From: Methylophaga sp. OBS3 | GTDB taxonomy: Bacteria; Pseudomonadota; Gammaproteobacteria; Nitrosococcales; Methylophagaceae | Length of the DNA: 64,000 nt | Direction of reading: 5' to 3' | Assembly: GCF_026319325.1 (NCBI RefSeq) | Contig: NZ_JAPDMU010000001.1 | Coordinates: 248,001-312,000, forward strand | In this document: positions 8,082 to 48,898 of the stretch, piece by piece | Numbering within the stretch: position 1 is the first letter of the stretch | How the letters are laid out: every line of letters starts with the position of its first letter | Notes under the pieces: model-generated | The model's input: the letters and a program-made list of their open reading frames with translations, nothing else | Databases searched by the model: none | What the model was told of the DNA's origin: nothing | Position numbers and translations under genes: made by a program

Positions 8082-8158
8082 ATTTAGTAAGTAATGTGCT
8101 GATAATCGGCACAAAATCTGCATAGACATAGTTCCAACTTAAAGACATGTCAGAAAAT

Positions 8159-8177: not shown

Positions 8178-8201
8178 GACTTCTGCAAATGGAAAATGAC
8201 T

Positions 8202-9938
8202 ATGCGGCAAATTTGCATCATTTTTAGCCTGTTAGCAGTGCTTTTACCGTTGTCGGTAAATGCTACAACACCCGACGTTCGTGTGGTGATTGATGTTTCA
8301 GGCAGCATGAAACAAAACGATCCACAAAACCTTCGGGCGCCAGGTTTACGCTTGCTTAGCGGTTTATTGCCGCCCGATAGTGCATCGGGTGTCTGGACGT
8401 TTGCCTCTCAGGTAAACATGCTCGTGCCATGGCAAAGTGTCGATAATAAATGGCGTGATAATGCAAATAGTCAGTCGGCCAAAATTCACTCGCGTGGCTT
8501 ATTCACTAATATCGAGCAGGCGTTGAAAGATGCCATTTCGACGGCGCCAGAAAATAGTGATCGCGCGCGTAGTATAATTTTATTATCTGATGGTTTAGTT
8601 GATCTAAAAGCTGGTGAACAAGCCAGTAAACAATCACGCCAGCGCATCATTGATCAGTTATTACCCAAACTACAAAAACTTGGTTTTAAGGTGCATACCA
8701 TCGCCTTATCATCAACTGCCGATCATGCATTGCTAGAACAATTATCTCTCGCAACCAACGGTTGGTATCGCCAAGTAGATACAGCCGATCAGCTTGAGCG
8801 TGTGTTTCTGCATTTGTTTGAACAAGCAACGCAACGCGATAACGTTCCCATTAAAGATAATTATTTCAGCATTGATACCAGTGTTGAAGAAATGACAGTG
8901 CTGGTTTTCAGAGAACCAGATTCTGCAGCGGCAACGTTAATACAACCCGATCAACAAGTGCTCTCCGAAGCACAGCGTAGTGACCAATTACGCTGGCAGC
9001 ATGAAAAGCATTATGACTTGATTACCATTGAGAAGCCGATGGCTGGTGACTGGTTTATTGATGCACGTTTAGATCCTGATAATCGCGTGATGGTAGTGAC
9101 TGATCTTCAGTTGGAAACCAATGAGCTACCGAATAATGTATTGGTTGGTGAGCGTTTTGATATGACGGCAATGCTGACCGAAAATGGTGAGCCAATTAGC
9201 AAAGAAAACTTCTTAGCTTTAGTTGAGACTGAGCTCCAGCAGCTAGATCCTGATGGCGAGACTTTAACGAGTGAATTAGCACGAACCGCTGAAGATGCTA
9301 CCTATCGTGTTGAATTGGGTCAGTTATTTTCCTCTGGTCGTAACGATATTGTGATCACCGCCAAAAGTGCGACTTTTGAGCGCCAACGTCGACAATCAAT
9401 AAATGTCGTAGCTGTACCTTTAAATATTGAAGTTACGCAACTTACTGAAGCAAATCGTAGCCACCGTTTAAGTGTCACGGCAGATAGTGAATTACTTGAT
9501 TTAGATAGTTTAGAAATGACGGCACTGTTAACTGCGGCAGATAATAGTGAGTTTTCATTTAATGTCATGCGTCAAGATACCAACCATTGGCAGCTGACAC
9601 TGGCAGAGTTACAACCAAGTGTTGATTACCAGTTATCACTGCAAGTTCGAGGTTTAACGCCAGCTGGTCGTGATGTGTTTTTACAGCCACAAACACTGAC
9701 GATAAAAGATTCACAGCAACTGGTTTCGATTGACTCAGATGTTGCAAATATTGCCATTCCTGACGTTATAGAAGAGACCCCTGAGAGTGACTTACCGTCT
9801 GAAAAATCGGCTACTGAATGGTTATCACCAAATGTAATTTTAATGATAGGCAATGGCGTAATGTTATTACTGCTATTGGCCGGTATTTTGTGGTGGCGTC
9901 GTTATCAGCGACCACCTACCCCCGAGGAGATGTTGTAA
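8202..9938 (+). CDS. Membrane-anchored VWA-domain protein
   Basis: A 578-residue envelope protein of unknown job. A signal peptide ends near residue 21, then a von Willebrand A domain (about 25-210) with a complete metal-binding MIDAS: DVSGS at 31-35, Thr102 in LFTN and Asp130 in LSDG. The middle part (about 230-500) is beta-rich and Ig-like. A transmembrane helix (about 545-565) and a short basic cytoplasmic tail end the protein. The start at 8202 is preferred because GGAAA sits 6 bases upstream; an in-frame ATG at 8196 is possible. The acidic coiled-coil gene begins right after its stop codon, so the two are surely cotranscribed. VWA domains with a full MIDAS usually bind a protein partner through Mg2+. 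Confidence 0.8.
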   Translation: MRQICIIFSLLAVLLPLSVNATTPDVRVVIDVSGSMKQNDPQNLRAPGLRLLSGLLPPDSASGVWTFASQVNMLVPWQSVDNKWRDNANSQSAKIHSRGLFTNIEQALKDAISTAPENSDRARSIILLSDGLVDLKAGEQASKQSRQRIIDQLLPKLQKLGFKVHTIALSSTADHALLEQLSLATNGWYRQVDTADQLERVFLHLFEQATQRDNVPIKDNYFSIDTSVEEMTVLVFREPDSAAATLIQPDQQVLSEAQRSDQLRWQHEKHYDLITIEKPMAGDWFIDARLDPDNRVMVVTDLQLETNELPNNVLVGERFDMTAMLTENGEPISKENFLALVETELQQLDPDGETLTSELARTAEDATYRVELGQLFSSGRNDIVITAKSATFERQRRQSINVVAVPLNIEVTQLTEANRSHRLSVTADSELLDLDSLEMTALLTAADNSEFSFNVMRQDTNHWQLTLAELQPSVDYQLSLQVRGLTPAGRDVFLQPQTLTIKDSQQLVSIDSDVANIAIPDVIEETPESDLPSEKSATEWLSPNVILMIGNGVMLLLLLAGILWWRRYQRPPTPEEML

Positions 9939-12797
9939 ATGTCGTTAACAGATCCGGTTTTTGAATGGTTAGCCTTTGAGCTGGCAGGCATATTTGCCTT
10001 GTTGTTTGCGTGGACATTAATCCGTTTAGTCCGCAAAAATAAACAGATCCGTGAGGATTCAGCCAAAGCGGTAAAACTTATTAAACAAAAGCGTGAGGGG
10101 AGACGCCAGCAACTTGCTGTCATTTTGCAGACGCAATATGGCTTGAATGGTGAGTCGTTAGAAAGTGAGGTTGAGGCCTTACAACAGCGTGAGCGTGAGC
10201 TAAATAAAAACCTGCTTAGCCTCTACGTTACCCAAAACGGTAAAACGTTAAGTGCAATGCCTGACCAAATGGAGTCACTGCTAAACGCTGGTCTCGCACT
10301 AATGTCACCACAACGTGAGAATGAAGAGCAGCGCCAACAATTACAAACACTAGCCGCAGAAAATGCTGAACTGACAGCGACAGTAAGTCGTTTGCAACAG
10401 GCACTTGAAGAACAGGCATTAGCCGCTGAAGTTCCTGTCGATGAGTTTAATGAAGAAACTCAAGAAACAGACGATGAAGTGGAAGTTGTAGAGGAAACGG
10501 TTTTTTCTGATGATGTTGTTATTGCGTCAGTTTCAACTAGTGAAGCAGAGCCCGAAAACATTGAAGAATCATCAGTATTTGATGATGAAACATTAATGGA
10601 GACTCAGGAAGCAGAGCAACTCTATGCTGATGATGTAAATCAATTGCTTGATGGGTTTGAAATTGAGCTTGCAGATGCTACTCGCAATAGTGATGGCATC
10701 AGCAACGAAGCGCCGACAGTTGAAGATATTAACGTTGATATGTCTGAAGACGCTGCGCCTTCTGAGGTAACTGATGTCGAAGCTTTTCAAGATGAATTGA
10801 GCGATAACGTCGAAGATAGTGTTGATATTAGCGAATTCTCTGATGAAGTTATGACTGATGAACTTCAGGAGACTGATGAGCCTGTTAGTAAGAGTAAACA
10901 AAGTAGCTTGAGTAATTTTGCGAATTCCAACTGGCAGCCTGAAACGCCTGATGTTTATGGTAAGTATGTCCCAGAGCTTGAGCCAGAAATGGTGGTAGAA
11001 GCTGAACCTGAAATTACAGAAACCAAACCAAAGGCCAGCCTGAAGCAGTTTATGAATAGTAGTTGGCAGGCAACTACGCCACCTGTTTATGGACTTCATG
11101 CATCGATTTCAGAACCGCTTGAAGAAATCGAAGAACTAGATGAATTAGCCGCGGTTACTGAGACAAACCTATTAGATGAAAGCTTAAACGAAGAGCCTGA
11201 AGTTCAATCCGCACAGAATGTTGCTGAAGAGTGGGTCGATTTTAATGAGTTTGATCTTGGTGTAAGTGGATCAGACACTGCTGCCGAAGCCGAAGCCGAA
11301 GCCGAAGCCGAAGCCGAAGCCGAAGCCGAAGCCGAAGCCGAAGCCGAAGCCGAAGCCGAAGCCGAAGCCAAAGCGGCGATCTTTGATGATGAAGAGCTTA
11401 TTGCTGAGGAGTCAAAACACGGCGGTCCAACGGGGGTAGAAAAATATATTCAGTCGCGGCTAGAGTCTTCACCTGTTGATGACTCTGATGAAACGAGAGT
11501 TGATGACGAATTTACGGTTTCTTTGGCCGATAACCAAAACATTTCTGAAGACGCTGAAGTAGTTAGAAATGAGGCTGAAACTGAAGCCGACAAACTAAGT
11601 CGTTTGATGGCGCAGCAGTCGGAAGTTAATGAAGTAGTCGAGCCGGAAGTAGCAGAACCATCAACAAATTCAACAGAAGATCAAGCAATTGAACAGTTGG
11701 ATGAATTAGCAAGATTGCGTCGTCGACTACGCGAAAAAACGGAAGCGTTAAAAGCGGCTAAACCGATGGTTGTTGAAGAGCCAGAAGTTAGCGTTGACGT
11801 TAATCAAAGCGAAGCAACGGATATTGAGCCGCTAAATGAAATTCCCAAAAGCAATATTATTGAAATGGCAGGGTTTAGTTCGATTGCCCAAGATAATGAC
11901 ATTTTGGTTGAGGACTCTGACACAGGCGTATCAGAGGAAGATATTGCCAATGAAATAGATGAGCCTGATGTTGAGGTGAATCAAGAGTGGGATTTATCTT
12001 CAAAGCTGCAAGCAGGCGAGGACTTTACGTCTAGTGATGTTGAGCTATCAACAGTTGAGTCCGAAAATGAAATTGAAGAACTGGACTTATCTGCCGAGTT
12101 TGAACTGCCTGAAGCGCATGAAGAGCTGACTGCGAATGAATCAGATGTTGAAACGTTAGATTTGTCTTCGGAGTTTGCTTCAATAGAAGATGATTTTGCT
12201 GAAGATGATGTTTTATTAGACGTTATTATGGAAGAAGGAGAGGCAGATGCCGCCGAAGCAGCATCACAGTCTTCTGAAGAGAATGAATTAGACATGGATG
12301 CCTTAATGGCCTCAGCATCAGAGGTTGATGAAGTTGATACGTTTGAGTCTGATTCAGTGCTTGAAGAACAAGTCAAAGTTGATGACGTTGAAAACAAAAC
12401 TACATCAAATGATATTGATGATTTTGCTGCAGCACTGGCTGCAGAAGCCGCACAAGCAGAGCAAGAACGTTTAGAAACTGAATCTCAAATTGCTGAATTT
12501 GATACTGAGTTGCAGCCGCCATTACCTGAGCAGGATGCGCTCAGTGATTTGATGTCTGAAGTCGGGGATTTACAACGTTTACAACCGGCAACATCAGAGC
12601 AAAATGATGACTTGAATGCCGCAGCTGATCTGCCATTACCGGATAACGCTTCGCTTAATAAATTGATGGAAGAGGTTAGAGAGTTACAACAAAACCCTGA
12701 CTTTAAACCTGTCGAAGAAAAAGGCCAGCAGGACTTGCAGCAGATCTTGTCGCACATTCCACGCTTTGGCGGTAACCGGGATGGTGGCAAAAGCTAA
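9939..12797 (+). CDS. Large acidic coiled-coil inner-membrane protein
   Basis: Not recognised as a named family. The 952 residues start with one membrane helix (about 12-30) followed by basic residues, which predicts a cytoplasmic C-terminal part. A coiled coil (about 36-165) comes next, then about 780 residues very rich in Glu, Asp and Ser, probably disordered. Inside this are two copies of an SL..F.NS.WQ..TP.VYG motif (about 322-344 and 366-388), an (Ala-Glu) run from a hexanucleotide repeat (about 449-476), a helical segment near 585-605, and two C-terminal copies of an LP..D.L..LM.EV..LQ motif (about 860-880 and 898-918). The layout recalls the acidic cytoplasmic part of FimV, but no LysM or FimV C-terminal domain is seen. 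It begins at the VWA stop codon with GAGGAG upstream. Confidence 0.75.
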   Translation: MSLTDPVFEWLAFELAGIFALLFAWTLIRLVRKNKQIREDSAKAVKLIKQKREGRRQQLAVILQTQYGLNGESLESEVEALQQRERELNKNLLSLYVTQNGKTLSAMPDQMESLLNAGLALMSPQRENEEQRQQLQTLAAENAELTATVSRLQQALEEQALAAEVPVDEFNEETQETDDEVEVVEETVFSDDVVIASVSTSEAEPENIEESSVFDDETLMETQEAEQLYADDVNQLLDGFEIELADATRNSDGISNEAPTVEDINVDMSEDAAPSEVTDVEAFQDELSDNVEDSVDISEFSDEVMTDELQETDEPVSKSKQSSLSNFANSNWQPETPDVYGKYVPELEPEMVVEAEPEITETKPKASLKQFMNSSWQATTPPVYGLHASISEPLEEIEELDELAAVTETNLLDESLNEEPEVQSAQNVAEEWVDFNEFDLGVSGSDTAAEAEAEAEAEAEAEAEAEAEAEAEAEAEAKAAIFDDEELIAEESKHGGPTGVEKYIQSRLESSPVDDSDETRVDDEFTVSLADNQNISEDAEVVRNEAETEADKLSRLMAQQSEVNEVVEPEVAEPSTNSTEDQAIEQLDELARLRRRLREKTEALKAAKPMVVEEPEVSVDVNQSEATDIEPLNEIPKSNIIEMAGFSSIAQDNDILVEDSDTGVSEEDIANEIDEPDVEVNQEWDLSSKLQAGEDFTSSDVELSTVESENEIEELDLSAEFELPEAHEELTANESDVETLDLSSEFASIEDDFAEDDVLLDVIMEEGEADAAEAASQSSEENELDMDALMASASEVDEVDTFESDSVLEEQVKVDDVENKTTSNDIDDFAAALAAEAAQAEQERLETESQIAEFDTELQPPLPEQDALSDLMSEVGDLQRLQPATSEQNDDLNAAADLPLPDNASLNKLMEEVRELQQNPDFKPVEEKGQQDLQQILSHIPRFGGNRDGGKS
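11283..11366 (+). repeat. Perfect 14-copy GCCGAA hexanucleotide repeat
   Basis: Fourteen uninterrupted GCCGAA units, then one degenerate GCCAAA unit, inside the acidic coiled-coil gene. Each unit encodes Ala-Glu, so gain or loss of units changes the protein length without shifting the frame. The absence of any synonymous change argues for recent expansion. Confidence 0.97.
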
Positions 12798-12873: not shown

Positions 12874-14208
12874 ATGACAGATAAGATTCATCAAGTCGCC
12901 ATTGTCGGTGGTGGTGTTTGTGGCACAGCATTACTTTATATGTTGGCCGAGTATACCGATATCAATGATATTGTTTTGGTCGAGAAGTACGACTCTGTTG
13001 CGAAAGTAAATTCGCATAGTCGCAACAATAGTCAAACGATTCATTGTGGTGATATTGAAACTAATTACACACTGGAAAAAGCCAGTAAAGTAAAAGCCGC
13101 GGCACAAATGCTGGTGAATTTTGCTAAGCGTTTGCCAGAAGCCGACAAAATCATTTTTAAATATCCAAAAATGGTTTTAGGTGTCGGTGAGACAGAGTGT
13201 CGATTGTTGCGTCAGCGTTACCAAAGTTTCCGCGAAGTTTTTCCAGAAATGAAGTTACTGGAAAAAGCCGACATCGGTGCCGTCGAACCTAATGTGGTGA
13301 TGGCAAATGGCACTATGCGTCCAGAACCTTGTGTTGCCTTAGCGGTTTTAGATGATTACAGCGCGGTGGATTACCAGCAGTTATCACAAGCATTTGTTCG
13401 TGAAGCAAAAAAACACACAGATAAAAGCCTGAATGTGGTGCTCAATAATCAGATCGAAGACATCGTTGAGCAAGATGGCGTCTTTACCTTAATCAGCAAA
13501 GATAATGTTATTAAGGCGCGTAGCGTCGTTGTCTCAGCTGGTGGCCACAGCTTGTTGTTGGCTCAACAAATGGGCTATGGCTTAGAGTTTTCATGCTTAC
13601 CTGTTGCCGGTAGCTTTTATTTCACACCGCAAAAACTTAACGGCAAGGTGTATACCGTTCAAAACGATAAACTGCCGTTTGCTGCTGTTCACGGCGATCC
13701 GGATGTACTGGTTGAAGGTAAAACCCGTTTTGGGCCTACAGCTTTATTGTTACCGCTACTTGAGCGTTATAACAGCAGCACCTTCTTTGAGTTTTTACGG
13801 GTATTGAGGCTTGATAGCCGTGTCTTACGCGTATTTTGGGATCTATTCCGGGTTAAAGATATCCGTAACTACATCTTGAAAAACTTCCTGTTTGAAGTGC
13901 CTTTACTACGACGTTGGTTGTTTTTGAAAGATGCTCGCAAAATCGTGCCATCATTGGAATTGAAAGATATCCAATTTGCTAAAGGCTATGGTGGTGTCAG
14001 ACCGCAATTGATTGATAAAGCTAATGCCAAGCTGATGCTGGGTGAGGCCAAAATCAATCCAGGTACCGGCATTATTTTTAATATGACGCCGTCACCAGGT
14101 GGTACGAGCTGTTTGGAAAATGCAGAAAAAGATATGCGTATTGTGGCGACACGCCTGCAAGCGCAGATCAATGAAGCCAAACTGGAAGAAACTCTTCGTA
14201 ACGTCTAA
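12874..14208 (+). CDS. FAD-dependent oxidoreductase, malate:quinone oxidoreductase-like
   Basis: A 444-residue flavoprotein with an N-terminal dinucleotide fold (VAIVGGGVCGTALLYML, about 8-24), an acidic residue ending the second strand (VLVEKYD), and a SRNNSQTIHCG segment that matches the NN.GTGH region of malate:quinone oxidoreductases. The C-terminal TPSPGGTSCLENAEKD matches the family's SPGAS motif. Classical Mqo proteins are about 490-550 residues, so this is a short, divergent member, and the substrate (malate or another 2-hydroxy acid) is not certain. Several hydrophobic-basic segments at 300-350 suggest membrane contact. Its stop codon overlaps the greB start codon by one base. Confidence 0.68.
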   Translation: MTDKIHQVAIVGGGVCGTALLYMLAEYTDINDIVLVEKYDSVAKVNSHSRNNSQTIHCGDIETNYTLEKASKVKAAAQMLVNFAKRLPEADKIIFKYPKMVLGVGETECRLLRQRYQSFREVFPEMKLLEKADIGAVEPNVVMANGTMRPEPCVALAVLDDYSAVDYQQLSQAFVREAKKHTDKSLNVVLNNQIEDIVEQDGVFTLISKDNVIKARSVVVSAGGHSLLLAQQMGYGLEFSCLPVAGSFYFTPQKLNGKVYTVQNDKLPFAAVHGDPDVLVEGKTRFGPTALLLPLLERYNSSTFFEFLRVLRLDSRVLRVFWDLFRVKDIRNYILKNFLFEVPLLRRWLFLKDARKIVPSLELKDIQFAKGYGGVRPQLIDKANAKLMLGEAKINPGTGIIFNMTPSPGGTSCLENAEKDMRIVATRLQAQINEAKLEETLRNV

Positions 14209-14680: not shown

Positions 14681-15298
14681 TCAATATAGGCTTGCAATAA
14701 CATCAAGCTTTTCCGCTTCAGGAAATTGCATTAAAGATACTGTAACGTCATCTGCACTAACGTTTAGGGCAGCTATAGTTTCAGTGAGTTCATTAATAAC
14801 TTCAATGTGTTTTACGGTATTAAATTCGTTACGAATATAGTGCAAGGTACCGATATAAATCACCCCCGCATCTTTCGGGACATCGAAGTAAAAACCTCCC
14901 GGAAACCATAAACGTTCTTGCTTTAGCGCATCTAAGAACATGAAGCCGCCATTTAACCATGTAGTGCGCTTATCAAGCTCTACCATAAATGGCTGGCCCC
15001 ACTGGACTTCAATCGTTTGTTGCCAATCTGATCCACCTAATTGGGCGCTAGCCGGTTGGTTGTTAGGCCCCGTTGCCATAAAAACGGTATTAATAATTCG
15101 CTCATCACCAACCACGTTCCAATGTGTTTGTTGCTCAATGTCAGTTAAAACCGATGGTGTTAAAACAAAGCGTCCAATGACCACAACTTTATTTGGTGAT
15201 GATACTTGGCCTTTTGTGGTGTGTTGAACCATTTTTGGCATGCCACAACCGGCAATAAATAGCGCGGTTACAAGCACACATAAAATTTTAAATTTCAT
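14681..15298 (-). CDS. Putative lipoprotein of unknown function (downstream member of pair)
   Basis: A 205-residue protein with a lipoprotein signal peptide ending in IAGC (Cys at about 18). The start at 15298 is chosen because it places that signal at the N-terminus; the longer frame reaches into the upstream gene. The mature part contains FNGG-like turns, a GGFYFDVP segment and GTLHYI, suggesting a beta-rich fold. No known family was recognised. It overlaps the end of the neighbouring lipoprotein gene by 11 bases and ends 5 bases from the convergent greB stop codon. Confidence 0.75.
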   Translation of the reverse strand: MKFKILCVLVTALFIAGCGMPKMVQHTTKGQVSSPNKVVVIGRFVLTPSVLTDIEQQTHWNVVGDERIINTVFMATGPNNQPASAQLGGSDWQQTIEVQWGQPFMVELDKRTTWLNGGFMFLDALKQERLWFPGGFYFDVPKDAGVIYIGTLHYIRNEFNTVKHIEVINELTETIAALNVSADDVTVSLMQFPEAEKLDVIASLY

Positions 15299-15857
15299 GG
15301 GCGCGAATCGCGGCGCGAAGGCGGGCTTCAATCTCTGGTTTATCAGCAGCATCTGGCAACATCGCTTTCAGCATGTCGTATTCAGATGGACCATTCTCAA
15401 CAGGATAAATATCAAATTGGTCTTGTTCGAATAAGCCCGTGTCGACTTCGACTAGTTTATAAGCACCTAGGTTATACACACCAGGTTCGGTTGCACGGAC
15501 ACGACCAATATCATCACCTTGTTTACCAAAGTCATAGTTGTAAATGGTGTTGCCACACAGACCGATACATTTTCTGCCGGTCGCACTACTTAACCCAAAC
15601 GAACCATTTGGAAATGCGAAAGAGTAATAAAGAAAGCCGCCTTGGAATTCGACAACTTTAACATTGAAATAGGGTAGATCAGTTTTGGGTAGATATTGAT
15701 AAATAGTGACGTTATGTAACTCATTGGCATCTACATCGCTGATATCAAGCCAGCCATAAATTGCTGATCTATCTGCGAAATTGGTAACACGCTCACCACC
15801 TGGTGTGACGCATGCAGAACTGAGAAGGGCGAAAAAAGAGATGGCTAACCATTTCAT
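15288..15857 (-). CDS. Putative lipoprotein of unknown function (upstream member of pair)
   Basis: A 189-residue protein beginning MKWLAISFFALLSSAC, a short signal sequence ending in a cysteine. Its lipobox is not ideal (Ser at -3), so lipidation is likely rather than certain. The mature part has WLDISDVDANEL, a GGFLYYSFAFPNGSFGL stretch and a cysteine pair (KCIGLC). It is probably cotranslated with the next lipoprotein gene, which starts inside its last codons. The start at 15857 is chosen for the signal peptide. The function is unknown. Confidence 0.72.
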   Translation of the reverse strand: MKWLAISFFALLSSACVTPGGERVTNFADRSAIYGWLDISDVDANELHNVTIYQYLPKTDLPYFNVKVVEFQGGFLYYSFAFPNGSFGLSSATGRKCIGLCGNTIYNYDFGKQGDDIGRVRATEPGVYNLGAYKLVEVDTGLFEQDQFDIYPVENGPSEYDMLKAMLPDAADKPEIEARLRAAIRAHEI

Positions 15858-15959
15858 GGGAATGTGCAGTCCTTTGTCTGAGTTTTTAAAAATAGTATGG
15901 CGTATATGAAAAGGCATTCCAATTCATTATTGGATTTTTATATGACTATTTAATTAATA

Positions 15960-41877: not shown

Positions 41878-42651
41878 GTGGATTTAGCGACGCTACTGGG
41901 TTTTTTAATCGCCTGGACATTAATCATTCTGACAATTGCGTTAGGCGCCGCTGCCAGCACATTCCTGAATATGCCATCATTTCTTATTGTTTTTGGTGGC
42001 ACCTTTGCTGTTGTAATGATGCGATTCACCCTGAAACAATTTATTAACTCGATTAAAACTACCTCAAAAGCGTTTCTTCACCGCAGTGTTCAACCTGATG
42101 AGATCATTACAGAAGTAGTCCGTCTCGCTGGTGTCGCTCGTAAAGAAGGTTTGTTGGCATTGGAACGCCAAGAAGTCTCCATTCCTGCATTATCTTTAGG
42201 CATCAGAATGTTGGTTGATGGACATGAACCAGCGGTTGTCCGAAAAGCGTTGGTGACAGAAATGAACGAAACCATTAACCGTCATCGAATTGGTCAACAG
42301 ATCTTCCAACAAATCGGTGATGCTGCACCGGCGATGGGCATGATTGGTACCTTAGTCGGTCTGGTGCAAATGTTATCGAATATGTCAGACCCAAAAGCAA
42401 TTGGTCCGGCCATGGCTGTGGCCTTACTTACCACGCTTTATGGTGCAATGATCGCCAATATGTTTGCATTGCCTATCGCGGATAAACTCTCACTAAGAAG
42501 TAATGAAGAGATGATGAATAAAAACATCATTGTCGAGAGTGTGATGGGAATTCAAGAAGGTCAAAACCCTAAAGTACTTGAAGAGCTTCTTAAAAATTAT
42601 TTGCCAGCTTCAATGCGCGAAAGTGACGCTGAACCCGCTGGAACAGCTTAA
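41878..42651 (+). CDS. pomA: Flagellar motor stator protein PomA (MotA family)
   Basis: The stator subunit that, with PomB, converts ion flow into flagellar rotation. The 257-residue protein starts MDLATLLG like sodium-type PomA and has four membrane helices. The cytoplasmic loop carries charged residues for rotor contact, and GDAAPAMGMIGTLVGLVQML forms helices 3-4. It uses a GTG start codon with AAGGGAG about 9 bases upstream. pomB follows after 12 bases. Assignment to the sodium type is from resemblance, not proof. Confidence 0.9.
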   Translation: MDLATLLGFLIAWTLIILTIALGAAASTFLNMPSFLIVFGGTFAVVMMRFTLKQFINSIKTTSKAFLHRSVQPDEIITEVVRLAGVARKEGLLALERQEVSIPALSLGIRMLVDGHEPAVVRKALVTEMNETINRHRIGQQIFQQIGDAAPAMGMIGTLVGLVQMLSNMSDPKAIGPAMAVALLTTLYGAMIANMFALPIADKLSLRSNEEMMNKNIIVESVMGIQEGQNPKVLEELLKNYLPASMRESDAEPAGTA

Positions 42652-42663
42652 GGTTAGCTCGCG

Positions 42664-43560
42664 ATGGATGTCGAAACAAATCGCGTAGCGCAACAAGCCA
42701 AAAAAGGTTTACCAGCCTATTTGGCAACGTTTGCTGATCTGATGTCACTGCTAATGTGTTTCTTTGTCTTGTTGTTGTCATTTTCAGAAATTGATGCATT
42801 AAAGTTCAAAGAAGTCGTTAAATCAATGGAAAAGGCTTTTGGTGTCCAGCGCGATATCGTTGCTAATGAAATACCGCTTGGCACGAGTATTATTGCGCAA
42901 GAATTTAGTCCTGGAGAACCGAGACCAACGCCTCTGAATGTGGTTCAGCAAGAGACAATTGAAGATCCGCGTGAGGTGTTAAAAGTGACTATGGATGCGG
43001 AGGCGGCTGTTGAAGAAATCGCCAGACAAACCGCAGAAGAAGCGGAAGAATTCAAAAAAGCACTAAAAACTGAGATTGAAGATGGGCTTATTGAAGTTGA
43101 AAGTGAGCACAATCGAATCGTTATTCGAATCCGTGAAAAGGGTTCGTTTCCCTCAGGTGACGCAACGTTAAACCCTAACTTTGTACCTATCTTAAAGACG
43201 ATTCATGATGTGCTCATTGAAACGGATGGCTTGATCGCAGTTGCCGGTCACACCGATAATATACCGATCAGCACGGCACGTTATCGTTCTAACTGGGAGC
43301 TTTCGACTTCGCGAGCAACCTCGGTTGTTCATGAGTTATTGAAATATAACCAAATCCCTGCCGAGCGTTTTATGTTGGAAGGCTATGCCGATACGCGGCC
43401 TTTGTTGCCTAACGATAGTGCCGCTAACCGTGCGCAAAACCGTCGTGTTGAAATTATTGTACTGAAATCGCCAATCGATAGTGGTGTAACCCAATCTATT
43501 GATGAGTTACGCAGACAGTATGATTCGATTGAGAGTGAAGTTCACACGATACAGCAATAG
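42664..43560 (+). CDS. pomB: Flagellar motor stator protein PomB (MotB family)
   Basis: The ion-binding, peptidoglycan-anchored partner of PomA. The 298-residue protein has one N-terminal membrane helix with the ion-binding aspartate at 25 ([17 protein letters not shown]), a linker rich in Glu, and a C-terminal OmpA-like domain (about 155-275) with [11 protein letters not shown] and the [12 protein letters not shown] peptidoglycan-binding motif. It forms a two-gene unit with pomA. leuD begins 26 bases after its stop codon. Confidence 0.92.
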
Positions 43561-46393: not shown

Positions 46394-48898
46394 ATGACGC
46401 AAAAACGCATTGTCAGTTTGTCAGTTGTAGCTGCTTTAGGGCTGCTTAATCCAGTCACTTCTTGGGCATTTGGTCTGGGGCAGATTTCGGTGAAATCAGC
46501 CCTTAACCAGCCCTTTAATGCTGAAATACCCGTTACGTCACTAAGGGCAACTGAACAAGGCAATCTAGATGTTAGATTAGCGTCAACGGCAGATTTTGAC
46601 CGAGCCGGTATCGATAGAAGTCTTTTACTGACCCAGCTGCGTTTCGAAGTAATTGAAAATGGTGCCAATGCACGTATCAAAATTACCTCCCAAGTTCCGA
46701 TTAAAGAACCATTCCTCGACTTTCTAGTGACTGCTTCGGCAGGAGAGGGTCGTATGTTACGTGAATACACGGTATTACTCGATCCGCCATCAGAAGTTTA
46801 CCAACGCTCGACTACCAGCACCCAAGTGGCACCAAGCAGACCGACAACGAGTTCTGTACCAACAAGTCGCCCAAGTGCAACCGTAAATAGTTATCAAGTA
46901 CGTCGTGGTGATACGTTGTGGCAAATTGCCCAAAACACCAAGCCTGCTGCAGATATTACGGCTCAGCAAATGATGATGGCATTATTGAATGCTAACCCAG
47001 ATGCTTTTCAGTCAAACAATATCAATAGTCTTAAAGCCAACGTAACGCTGCAAATTCCTGATGCTGCAACGATTCGTCAGTTATCCGCTGCAGAAGCTAC
47101 AGCAGCCGTTCAGACGCAGTCAACACAATGGCGAAACCGCTCACAGCAAGTTGTAGCGCCAGTTGCACCAACTCCTGCCAATGAAGCGCCAGCTGTTACA
47201 GAACAGGCAGCAATTGAATCAGCCTCAGAGACAGAAGCGACGGACCAACAGCCAGTTGATGATGGTTCACGATTGAAGTTAGTAGCTGCCGCTGAAGATG
47301 GTGAGTCAGAAGCTGACCCTGATCAGCTTGGTGACCCAGAAGTACGTCGATTGAATGAGCAGCTCACTTTGGCTCAAGAAACAATCGAAGCACAAACACA
47401 GGAAAATATTGATTTCAAAGAACGTATGGACGCCATGGAAGCCCAAATGGAAACCATGCGTCGCCTGTTATCTTTGAAAGATGAAGATATGGCTAGACTT
47501 CAAGCAATGCTTGAAGAGGAGTCAGTGACAGGTTCGGATGCCGCACAACAACCATTAGCGGCGCTTAATGCTGAAACAGCTGATACCAGCGAAAATTCGG
47601 ATGTTGATACGACAACGGACGTTGCTGAAACGCAATCAGAAGTTGCAAGCCCTGTTGTAAACGACCCTAATAAACCTGCAGCGGCAAGTTATTTAGACAA
47701 TGCCAAAACATTTATTGGTAATTACATTCTTGAAATTCTGTTGGGTGGCCTTTTAGTTTTACTGCTGGTTTGGTTAGTCATTAGAAACCGTCGCCAAGAA
47801 GAAACCTGGGATGAGGCCGTTGCTGAGGTCGAAGAAGAAAATCCAACTACACAAGTAATAACCGAAGCTGACGTTCTTGAAGATAACGATGCGACTGTTG
47901 CTGTGATGGCTGCTAACGCTGAACCTGTCGAAGCCACTAAGACCGTTGATGAACTCGTCGAACAAGCAGATATGTTTGTTGGTTATGCTGATTATGTACA
48001 AGCAAGAACGGCACTAGAACAAGCACGTCAGATGGCGCCTGATGATAAGTCTGTTGCGACTAAATTGTTATTTGTTTTATTCAAACAAAATAAATCAGCT
48101 GATTTTGAACAAGTGCTTGTTGACAGTGACATCAACGAAGATGATGCGCAGTGGGATGATGTTCGTACTTGGGGCTTAGCATTAATGCCCTATGATGCAC
48201 GATTCCAATCAGACTCAGATGATAACGTTGATGATGTTATTGAAGATGACATCCCTGAATTGGATGAAACGACAGAAATCAATCTAAACCTTGATGATGT
48301 CGACGAGACAACGCAAGAAGAGATTGCTGAGCCAAAAGTTGATGACGATGGTGCTATCGACTTTGACTTGTCGCAATTTCAAGCTGATGTCAGCACAGAT
48401 GATAATGAGCCTGAATCGATAACACCTACTGTTGAAGAACTTGAAGAAGATAACTTCGATGATCGCTTACAAGTACGTGATACCTATGTAAGTGAAACAG
48501 TGGATAGTGACGATATCACGCCAATTTCGCTTGATATTGATGACACTGACACTAACGATGTGTCGTGGGAAGAAGAGCCTAAACAACCAACTTTACGTGA
48601 AGATGTTATGCCCATTTCACTAGATTTGGATGATGACTCTGATGCCGTTGATGACATCGCTGAACCACAGCAAGCCGATATTCAAGAGCTAGACTTAAGT
48701 GATGTTCAAGATGACTTAGATTTTGACTTAAGCGGCTTTGATGAAATCGATGAAGCTGAAACGAAGCTAGATTTAGCTGCAGCCTATGTAGATATGGGTG
48801 ATCCTGATGGTGCCCGTGGTATTTTGCAAGAAGTGCTTAATGAAGGCAGTGAAGAGCAAAAAGAACGAGCACGGACATTGCTCGCGACGCTAAACTAA
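46394..48898 (+). CDS. fimV: FimV family polar/peptidoglycan-binding protein
   Basis: A polar hub protein that supports type IV pili and other polar machinery in Pseudomonas and Vibrio (HubP). The 834-residue protein has a signal peptide, the FimV N-terminal domain (LGQISVKSALNQPFNAEIPV), a LysM peptidoglycan-binding domain (about 165-225, YQVRRGDTLWQIA), a coiled coil (about 315-375), one membrane helix (about 445-464), a long acidic cytoplasmic part and the C-terminal FimV TPR-like domain (about 788-834). Its position between asd and truA is conserved. No pilus gene is nearby. Confidence 0.93.
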   Translation: MTQKRIVSLSVVAALGLLNPVTSWAFGLGQISVKSALNQPFNAEIPVTSLRATEQGNLDVRLASTADFDRAGIDRSLLLTQLRFEVIENGANARIKITSQVPIKEPFLDFLVTASAGEGRMLREYTVLLDPPSEVYQRSTTSTQVAPSRPTTSSVPTSRPSATVNSYQVRRGDTLWQIAQNTKPAADITAQQMMMALLNANPDAFQSNNINSLKANVTLQIPDAATIRQLSAAEATAAVQTQSTQWRNRSQQVVAPVAPTPANEAPAVTEQAAIESASETEATDQQPVDDGSRLKLVAAAEDGESEADPDQLGDPEVRRLNEQLTLAQETIEAQTQENIDFKERMDAMEAQMETMRRLLSLKDEDMARLQAMLEEESVTGSDAAQQPLAALNAETADTSENSDVDTTTDVAETQSEVASPVVNDPNKPAAASYLDNAKTFIGNYILEILLGGLLVLLLVWLVIRNRRQEETWDEAVAEVEEENPTTQVITEADVLEDNDATVAVMAANAEPVEATKTVDELVEQADMFVGYADYVQARTALEQARQMAPDDKSVATKLLFVLFKQNKSADFEQVLVDSDINEDDAQWDDVRTWGLALMPYDARFQSDSDDNVDDVIEDDIPELDETTEINLNLDDVDETTQEEIAEPKVDDDGAIDFDLSQFQADVSTDDNEPESITPTVEELEEDNFDDRLQVRDTYVSETVDSDDITPISLDIDDTDTNDVSWEEEPKQPTLREDVMPISLDLDDDSDAVDDIAEPQQADIQELDLSDVQDDLDFDLSGFDEIDEAETKLDLAAAYVDMGDPDGARGILQEVLNEGSEEQKERARTLLATLN

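Follow-up and report, generated by a model that had tools for sequence, protein, structure and literature searches.

A conserved gene pair, a VWA protein and its membrane partner, is linked to flagella in Gammaproteobacteria

A stretch of 64,000 nucleotides from Methylophaga sp. OBS3 (the window) contains two adjoining genes that appear to be part of the motility apparatus of numerous aquatic bacteria and for which no function has been described; among open-licence papers, no description of the pair and no paper on the related family TIGR03503 was found. On balance, we think that the two proteins, a VWA protein and its partner, are the subunits of an inner-membrane complex of the flagellar/chemotaxis system, which would expose a tail on which CheY-family receivers or FlhG could dock. 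The link to flagella is strong and is drawn from co-occurrence, promoters, relics and absences of the pair in relatives, gene linkage, and a FliM-like motif.

Both genes lie on the forward strand and are real open reading frames, as described in an earlier reading made from the DNA letters alone (the sequence-only reading), with the ATG of the partner gene directly following the stop codon of the VWA gene (Table 1). They are flanked by genes for a BtuB-like receptor, a Cys/Met PLP enzyme (metZ), an Mqo-like oxidoreductase and greB. The open frame of the VWA gene starts at 8196 (580 aa), but the likely start is the ATG at 8202, which is as good or better, having a GGA at a favourable distance (at about 8190). 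The protein is composed of a signal peptide, a VWA domain (Pfam E=6e-10; PF00092, 40 bits against a cut-off of 23.8; PF13519, 42.8 bits against 27), a beta-sandwich region, a disordered linker and one membrane helix. In the AlphaFold2 model (mean pLDDT of 88), a VWA fold is followed by beta strands up to about residue 512, the disordered linker and a single C-terminal helix at 545-570. A structural alignment also supports the VWA fold, and the structure searches returned VWA or beta-sandwich look-alikes only, with the beta region barely covered. The MIDAS (DxSxS...T...D) is complete and a metal site is predicted: D33/S35/S37/T104/D132, counted from 8196 (Asp31/Ser33/Ser35/Thr102/Asp130 when numbered from 8202), are invariant in 36/36 aligned homologues. 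The abutting genes and the MIDAS-containing, C-terminally anchored VWA protein of the sequence-only reading are thus confirmed by open reading frames, Pfam, alignment and model. The signal peptide, together with the positive-inside rule, would place the VWA part outside and the tail of the partner inside.

Table 1. Features of the gene pair and its upstream region (window coordinates).
Feature	Position	Strand	Basis
Putative sigma-54-like promoter element CGGCACAAAATCTGCA (GG-N10-GC)	8107..8122	+	Conserved in VWA upstream regions of the window's family
VWA protein gene	8202..9938	+	ORF analysis, Pfam, AlphaFold2 model; open frame from 8196
VWA domain, residues 24-212 counted from 8196	8265..8831	+	Pfam PF00092, alignment, model
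Beta-sandwich region, residues 213-512, TIGR03503-related	8832..9731	+	NCBIfam match, model
C-terminal membrane helix of the VWA protein, invariant Asn553 (codon 9852-9854)	9825..9896	+	Alignment
Partner gene, 952 aa	9939..12797	+	ORF analysis
N-terminal membrane helix of the partner, invariant Glu14 (codon 9978-9980)	9972..10022	+	Alignment
Conserved helical domain of the partner, predicted cytoplasmic, about residues 29-160	10023..10418	+	Alignment; model of a homologue (L112)
Acidic tail, residues 171-952	10449..12794	+	Disorder predicted from the homologue model, by analogy
Degenerate FliM-like motif EQLYADDVNQLLDGFEI, residues 226-242	10614..10664	+	Motif comparison
Recurrent short motif, copy 1 (W..xTPDVYG)	10911..10961	+	Tail motif comparison
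Recurrent short motif, copy 2 (W..xTPPVYG)	11043..11093	+	Tail motif comparison
C-terminal motif DLQQILSHIPRF, conserved in the family	12732..12767	+	Tail motif comparison

For the partner, the sequence-only reading had described an N-terminal membrane helix and an acidic part of about 780 residues, and the measured tail agrees with this (782 residues, 29% D+E, 5% K+R). Its view of a giant acidic partner as the essence of the system was not supported, given that partners range from 141 to 2528 aa among the loci and that some genomes carry the acidic tail on the VWA protein instead. Scored by the best 60-residue stretch having at least 30% D/E, 62 of 92 loci have the tail on the partner, 8 have it on the VWA protein and 2 on both; the other 20 have no such tail, which at some of them is because the partner is cut off or missing. 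What the partners share, according to the alignment and the homologue model, is the membrane helix plus a helical domain of about 150 residues. The tails are strings of acidic repeats and short recurrent motifs, mostly of low complexity. What is conserved is a short, helical partner with a single membrane helix at its N-terminus; the acidic tail of 780 residues is an elaboration seen locally. A huge tail expansion is also seen between close relatives (L044:5749-13335 (+), L043:2864-7720 (-) and L048:6667-11454 (+)), where expanded partners of 1618 and 2528 aa adjoin VWA proteins of equal length; it proceeds via (EP)n, (AE)n and similar repeats, that is, a fast-growing low-complexity coding repeat.

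The VWA protein was found in 37 of 58 relatives, and the TIGR03503 model matches 78 of 274 gammaproteobacterial genomes (hereafter, VWA-positive). In most loci, the next gene begins only a few bases on, and its product has a single N-terminal membrane helix that contains a Glu and continues as a basic coiled coil. Far from rarely occurring together, the VWA gene and its partner are adjacent in 75 of the 78 testable named loci (80 fetched, two of them at contig ends; a set retrieved separately, with many species common to both locus sets), the misses being L189, with a broken VWA gene, L201 and L217. This conservation of the pair across gammaproteobacterial families supports the two-gene envelope system joining periplasm and cytoplasm that had been proposed from the window. 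Clustering groups only 39/81 partners as the next gene, because partners diverge, and the named loci provide the wider count. A partner profile matches 59/274 genomes, of which 55 are among the 78 VWA-positive ones and four have no VWA match; the partner is not the next gene in loci including L056, L059, L102 and L162. Rows were omitted from the partner alignment where a usable partner was missing, and those left out are L041 (a duplicate of L040), L045, L056, L058-L061, L095, L102, L109, L150, L162 and L164. The gene order metZ-VWA-partner-mqo-greB is common in the window's family, and across families no third conserved gene was found beyond the partner.

Each of the two membrane helices carries a conserved polar residue. 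Asn553 is invariant in the 36 VWA rows and Glu14 in the 33 partner rows. More broadly, the Glu is present in 84/86 pairs, the two pairs without it (L105, L151) also being without the Asn, while the Asn alone is missing in L139 and L143, which belong to one genus, and effectively also in L138. Both residues thus occur in about 81/86 pairs, an approximate figure, because the automatic choice of helix was wrong for L135 and included an Asn at the helix edge in L138. The median distance to the first cytoplasmic K/R is 15 residues for the Asn and 16 for the Glu (78/86 pairs measurable). Such matching depth suggests that the helices associate through a buried polar contact, and, on the strength of conservation, the two proteins probably form a physical complex.

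FliM or FlhF was detected in 75/78 VWA-positive versus 72/196 VWA-negative genomes (Fisher p=8e-22; the counts ignore kinship), with an odds ratio of 31.5 within genome-size strata. The katG control showed no association (20/78 versus 65/196, p=0.25). The VWA-positive exceptions are G120, G137, in which the VWA gene is split over two frames, and G238, which is 64% complete. It could be argued that the pair is a general envelope-integrity system unrelated to motility, its flagellar link being a by-product of shared lifestyle or ancestry; the disregard of kinship in the counts and the fact that most copies are not beside flagellar genes would fit this. However, the association holds within the genome-size strata and is absent for katG. 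The FliA-type promoters also speak against it, as do those relatives that have no detected flagellar genes and retain a relic of the pair or lack it cleanly (see below), and we consider this explanation very unlikely. Flagella without the pair are common (72/196), and the pair is therefore an accessory. An association with type IV pili was also considered and was uninformative, PilT being nearly universal (232/274 over the cut-off).

The same pattern is seen within the window's family (35 genomes). FliM is present in 28 of the 29 genomes with an intact VWA gene, and the remaining one (G001, 55% complete) has FlhF. Six genomes are without an intact VWA gene, and five of these are without FliM: G024, G025, G028 and G032, which are 97-100% complete, and G010, at 68%. 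G004 has FliM, and with metZ at a contig edge the pair is not scoreable there. In G010, metZ is directly followed by mqo and the pair is cleanly absent, and in G025 metZ is kept and the pair is missing. G024 and G028 are weaker cases, because a close metZ is missing too and general genome reduction may explain why the pair was lost. In G032, which has neither FliM nor FlhF, the start of the VWA gene is fused to the end of the partner gene and both membrane helices are gone (L058). We rejected this locus as a natural VWA-partner fusion given the junction within a DVDVDV repeat, the lost helices, an N-run and the missing FliM/FlhF; it would rather be the remnant of a deletion, or in part a product of the assembly.

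Upstream regions were compared as well. A sigma-54-like element (CGGCAYAAAAYCTGCA) scores at least 8/12 in 26/28 Methylophagaceae upstreams versus 11/130 control upstreams from the same loci, and is a putative promoter. The pattern occurs once in the window's genome, and the same genome has a good sigma-54-like site just upstream of a fliL-fliM gene run (named by reading the sequence; FliM by profile). This element is not a FliA site, and sigma-54 also governs other genes, both of which weigh against the flagellar reading. In the genomes outside Methylophagaceae, a FliA-type site was found for 27/59 VWA genes versus 21/344 control genes (p=2e-13), counting sites within 150 nt that agree with the FliA-type consensus at 12/16 positions or more; only genes with an intergenic gap were used, the controls were neighbour genes, and their matches are partly flagellar or chemotaxis genes themselves. 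Considering all 66 upstreams, the count is 29 versus a shuffled mean of 1.4. The window has a 13/16 FliA-like match 90 nt upstream, beside the more conserved sigma-54-like element. From these predicted promoters and the patterns above, the pair very probably belongs to the flagellar regulon.

Direct linkage to flagellar genes is rare (13 matches in 9/81 loci scanned, those in L139 and L143 probably being MinD). In L059, the VWA gene, with no adjacent partner, adjoins a sensor kinase, a sigma-54 activator, fliE, fliF and fliG. Linkage to cheV is found in L120, where it comes after, L126 and L132, to flgM in L132 and to motAB in L098. Response regulators were set aside as conserved neighbours, as their frequency (15/670 neighbours, in 12/81 loci) may be background. 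As an observation in its own right, a response regulator follows the pair or a lone VWA gene on the same strand in L097:5927-7567 (+), L102:5677-7332 (+) and L154:2497-4104 (-); the one in L102, with a receiver and TPR repeats, occupies the place of the partner. Elsewhere in the window, a PomA/MotB-type stator pair is encoded at 41878-43560, and a second MotA/MotB-like pair, identified by reading the sequence, lies in a chemotaxis cluster (G000:C3:19553-21207), the genome thus probably holding two stator sets. The gene after the pair (12874-14208, +) encodes an Mqo/L-2-hydroxyglutarate-oxidase-like flavoprotein which is below every NCBIfam cut-off, with most family copies 68-83% identical to it. 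Two adjoining lipoprotein-like genes, of 223 aa (no NCBIfam match) and 209 aa, are located at 14681-15917 (-).

The pattern [DE]ID[ASTDEKNQ][LIMF][LFMI] occurs 49 times in 30/100 tails versus a shuffled mean of 0.9, and at 1.10 per 1000 residues in tails versus 0.06 in other ORFs. It resembles the start of FliM, which in the same genomes reads LSQDEVDALLNG or similar (10/10 read). When tails were scored against the FliM N-terminal 13-mer, 20/100 came out above the highest-scoring of 732 control ORFs, and shuffled tails never did; the top scores include the near-identical species L043, L044 and L062. The tails of relatives carry clear copies, e.g., ILSNEELDALLDG, and the window's closest relative has LYSDEVEQLLDG; the copy in the window (LYADDVNQLLDG) is degenerate (22.7 versus 28.8 for the best control). 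Given that the motif is found in a minority of tails and is degenerate in the window, it is not a universal function. The motif is internal in the tails versus N-terminal in FliM, and the rest of the partner protein is unrelated to FliM. CheY is reported to bind the conserved LSQxEIDxLL motif of FliM (PMC5677366; PMC6946799), CheY-like Cle proteins to read the same site (PMC5677366), and FlhG to bind the FliM N-terminus (PMC12826062; PMC11236974). By this resemblance, docking of CheY-family proteins or FlhG is a tentative proposal, and one that would not extend to every member of the family; CheY-family receivers are somewhat favoured over FlhG, because cheV adjoins some copies.

The tails also bear on a different reading, in which the VWA protein is a surface or matrix adhesion receptor, small-integrin-like, that is expressed with the flagellar regulon and binds a surface or peptidoglycan ligand, the tail being a passive spacer or charge reservoir. 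The complete MIDAS and the beta-sandwich ectodomain do resemble VWA receptors, and a mostly low-complexity tail of variable length would suit such a role. However, recurrent FliM-like motifs far above chance are unexpected for a passive tail, and, starting from an anchor in the inner membrane, the VWA domain would need a long reach to contact a surface. We regard this reading as quite unlikely.

The comparison with known systems delimits what the pair is. The NCBIfam hypothetical equivalog TIGR03503, a model that itself carries no function, matches residues 216-571 of the VWA protein over the model length, including the Asn-bearing C-terminal helix. The score of 182.4 bits is below the cut-off of 305.6, and the protein is therefore a relative of TIGR03503, not a member. 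The only TIGR03503 protein over the cut-off in the 274 genomes, L095:4185-5504 (+), is without a VWA domain and has no adjacent same-strand partner, and keeps the Asn-bearing C-terminal helix. The window partner has no match in the Pfam, NCBIfam or PADLOC family libraries, and anti-phage defence was rejected as PADLOC gave 0 families for either protein.

Another alternative is a polar landmark or number-control factor: the complex would mark the pole that bears the flagellum and would recruit or titrate FlhG (or FlhF) in the manner of FipA and HubP/FimV, without taking part in switching. FlhF is over the cut-off in 72/78 VWA-positive genomes, and the FliM N-terminus, as noted, is a binding site of FlhG. 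FipA, as described in PMC11620751, has the same layout as the partner (an N-terminal membrane helix, a short periplasmic N-terminus and a cytoplasmic coiled coil) and occurs in FlhF-linked genomes. Unlike FipA, the window partner is accompanied by a VWA protein and has no DUF2802 (nothing in Pfam up to E=1), and for 28 shorter partners DUF2802 was not among the matches listed, which comprised 25 of 111 weak families. FimV/HubP is likewise a single-pass membrane protein with a long acidic cytoplasmic tail, but the periplasmic part of the pair is a separate subunit. The sequence-only reading had pointed to a resemblance with FimV; there is indeed a FimV in the window (46394-48898, NCBIfam FimV/HubP), which matches both the FimV core (TIGR03505) and the FimV C-terminal domain (TIGR03504), and a likeness in composition stands. 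Kinship was rejected, since the best E value between the partner and this FimV is 0.18 and neither of the two domains gave an NCBIfam match in the partner. The pair is not FimV and not FipA. The landmark alternative is weakened by the missing DUF2802 and FimV domains, and by genomes with cheV, not flhFG, as neighbour; we consider it somewhat unlikely.

Returning to the two-subunit complex, its working would be as follows. The membrane helices would pack through the Asn/Glu pair, and the VWA plus beta-sandwich ectodomain would bind a periplasmic or cell-surface ligand via its metal site. The cytoplasmic tail, whichever subunit bears it, would be a flexible docking arm, whose FliM-like motifs may bind those proteins that bind the FliM N-terminus: CheY-family receivers, or FlhG, which regulates flagellar number. 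Occupancy by the outside ligand might then tune motor switching, or the placement and number of flagella, inside. In ANTXR2 and the integrins, a VWA domain and beta sandwiches lie outside, followed by one membrane helix. The VWA protein would share this topology, with a MIDAS, but differs from them in its low sequence identity, the two genes with the Asn/Glu helix pair, and the bacterial periplasm. A more far-reaching version, which we hold to be unlikely, is a widespread two-subunit receptor, minimal-integrin-like and with its membrane helices locked by the Asn/Glu contact, that would report a periplasmic or surface condition to the motor, its FliM mimics competing with the true switch for CheY-family receivers or FlhG; if true, it would constitute an input to flagellar control that bypasses the chemoreceptors.

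If the two-subunit reading is right, the pair is a new flagellar accessory in about a quarter of the sampled gammaproteobacterial genomes (78/274), and a family known only as TIGR03503-like would gain a testable function. It would represent a membrane complex that borrows the receiver-docking motif of the switch and connects a VWA domain facing outwards with the control of motility. The way in which environmental bacteria adjust the number, placement or switching of their flagella would then be seen in a new light.
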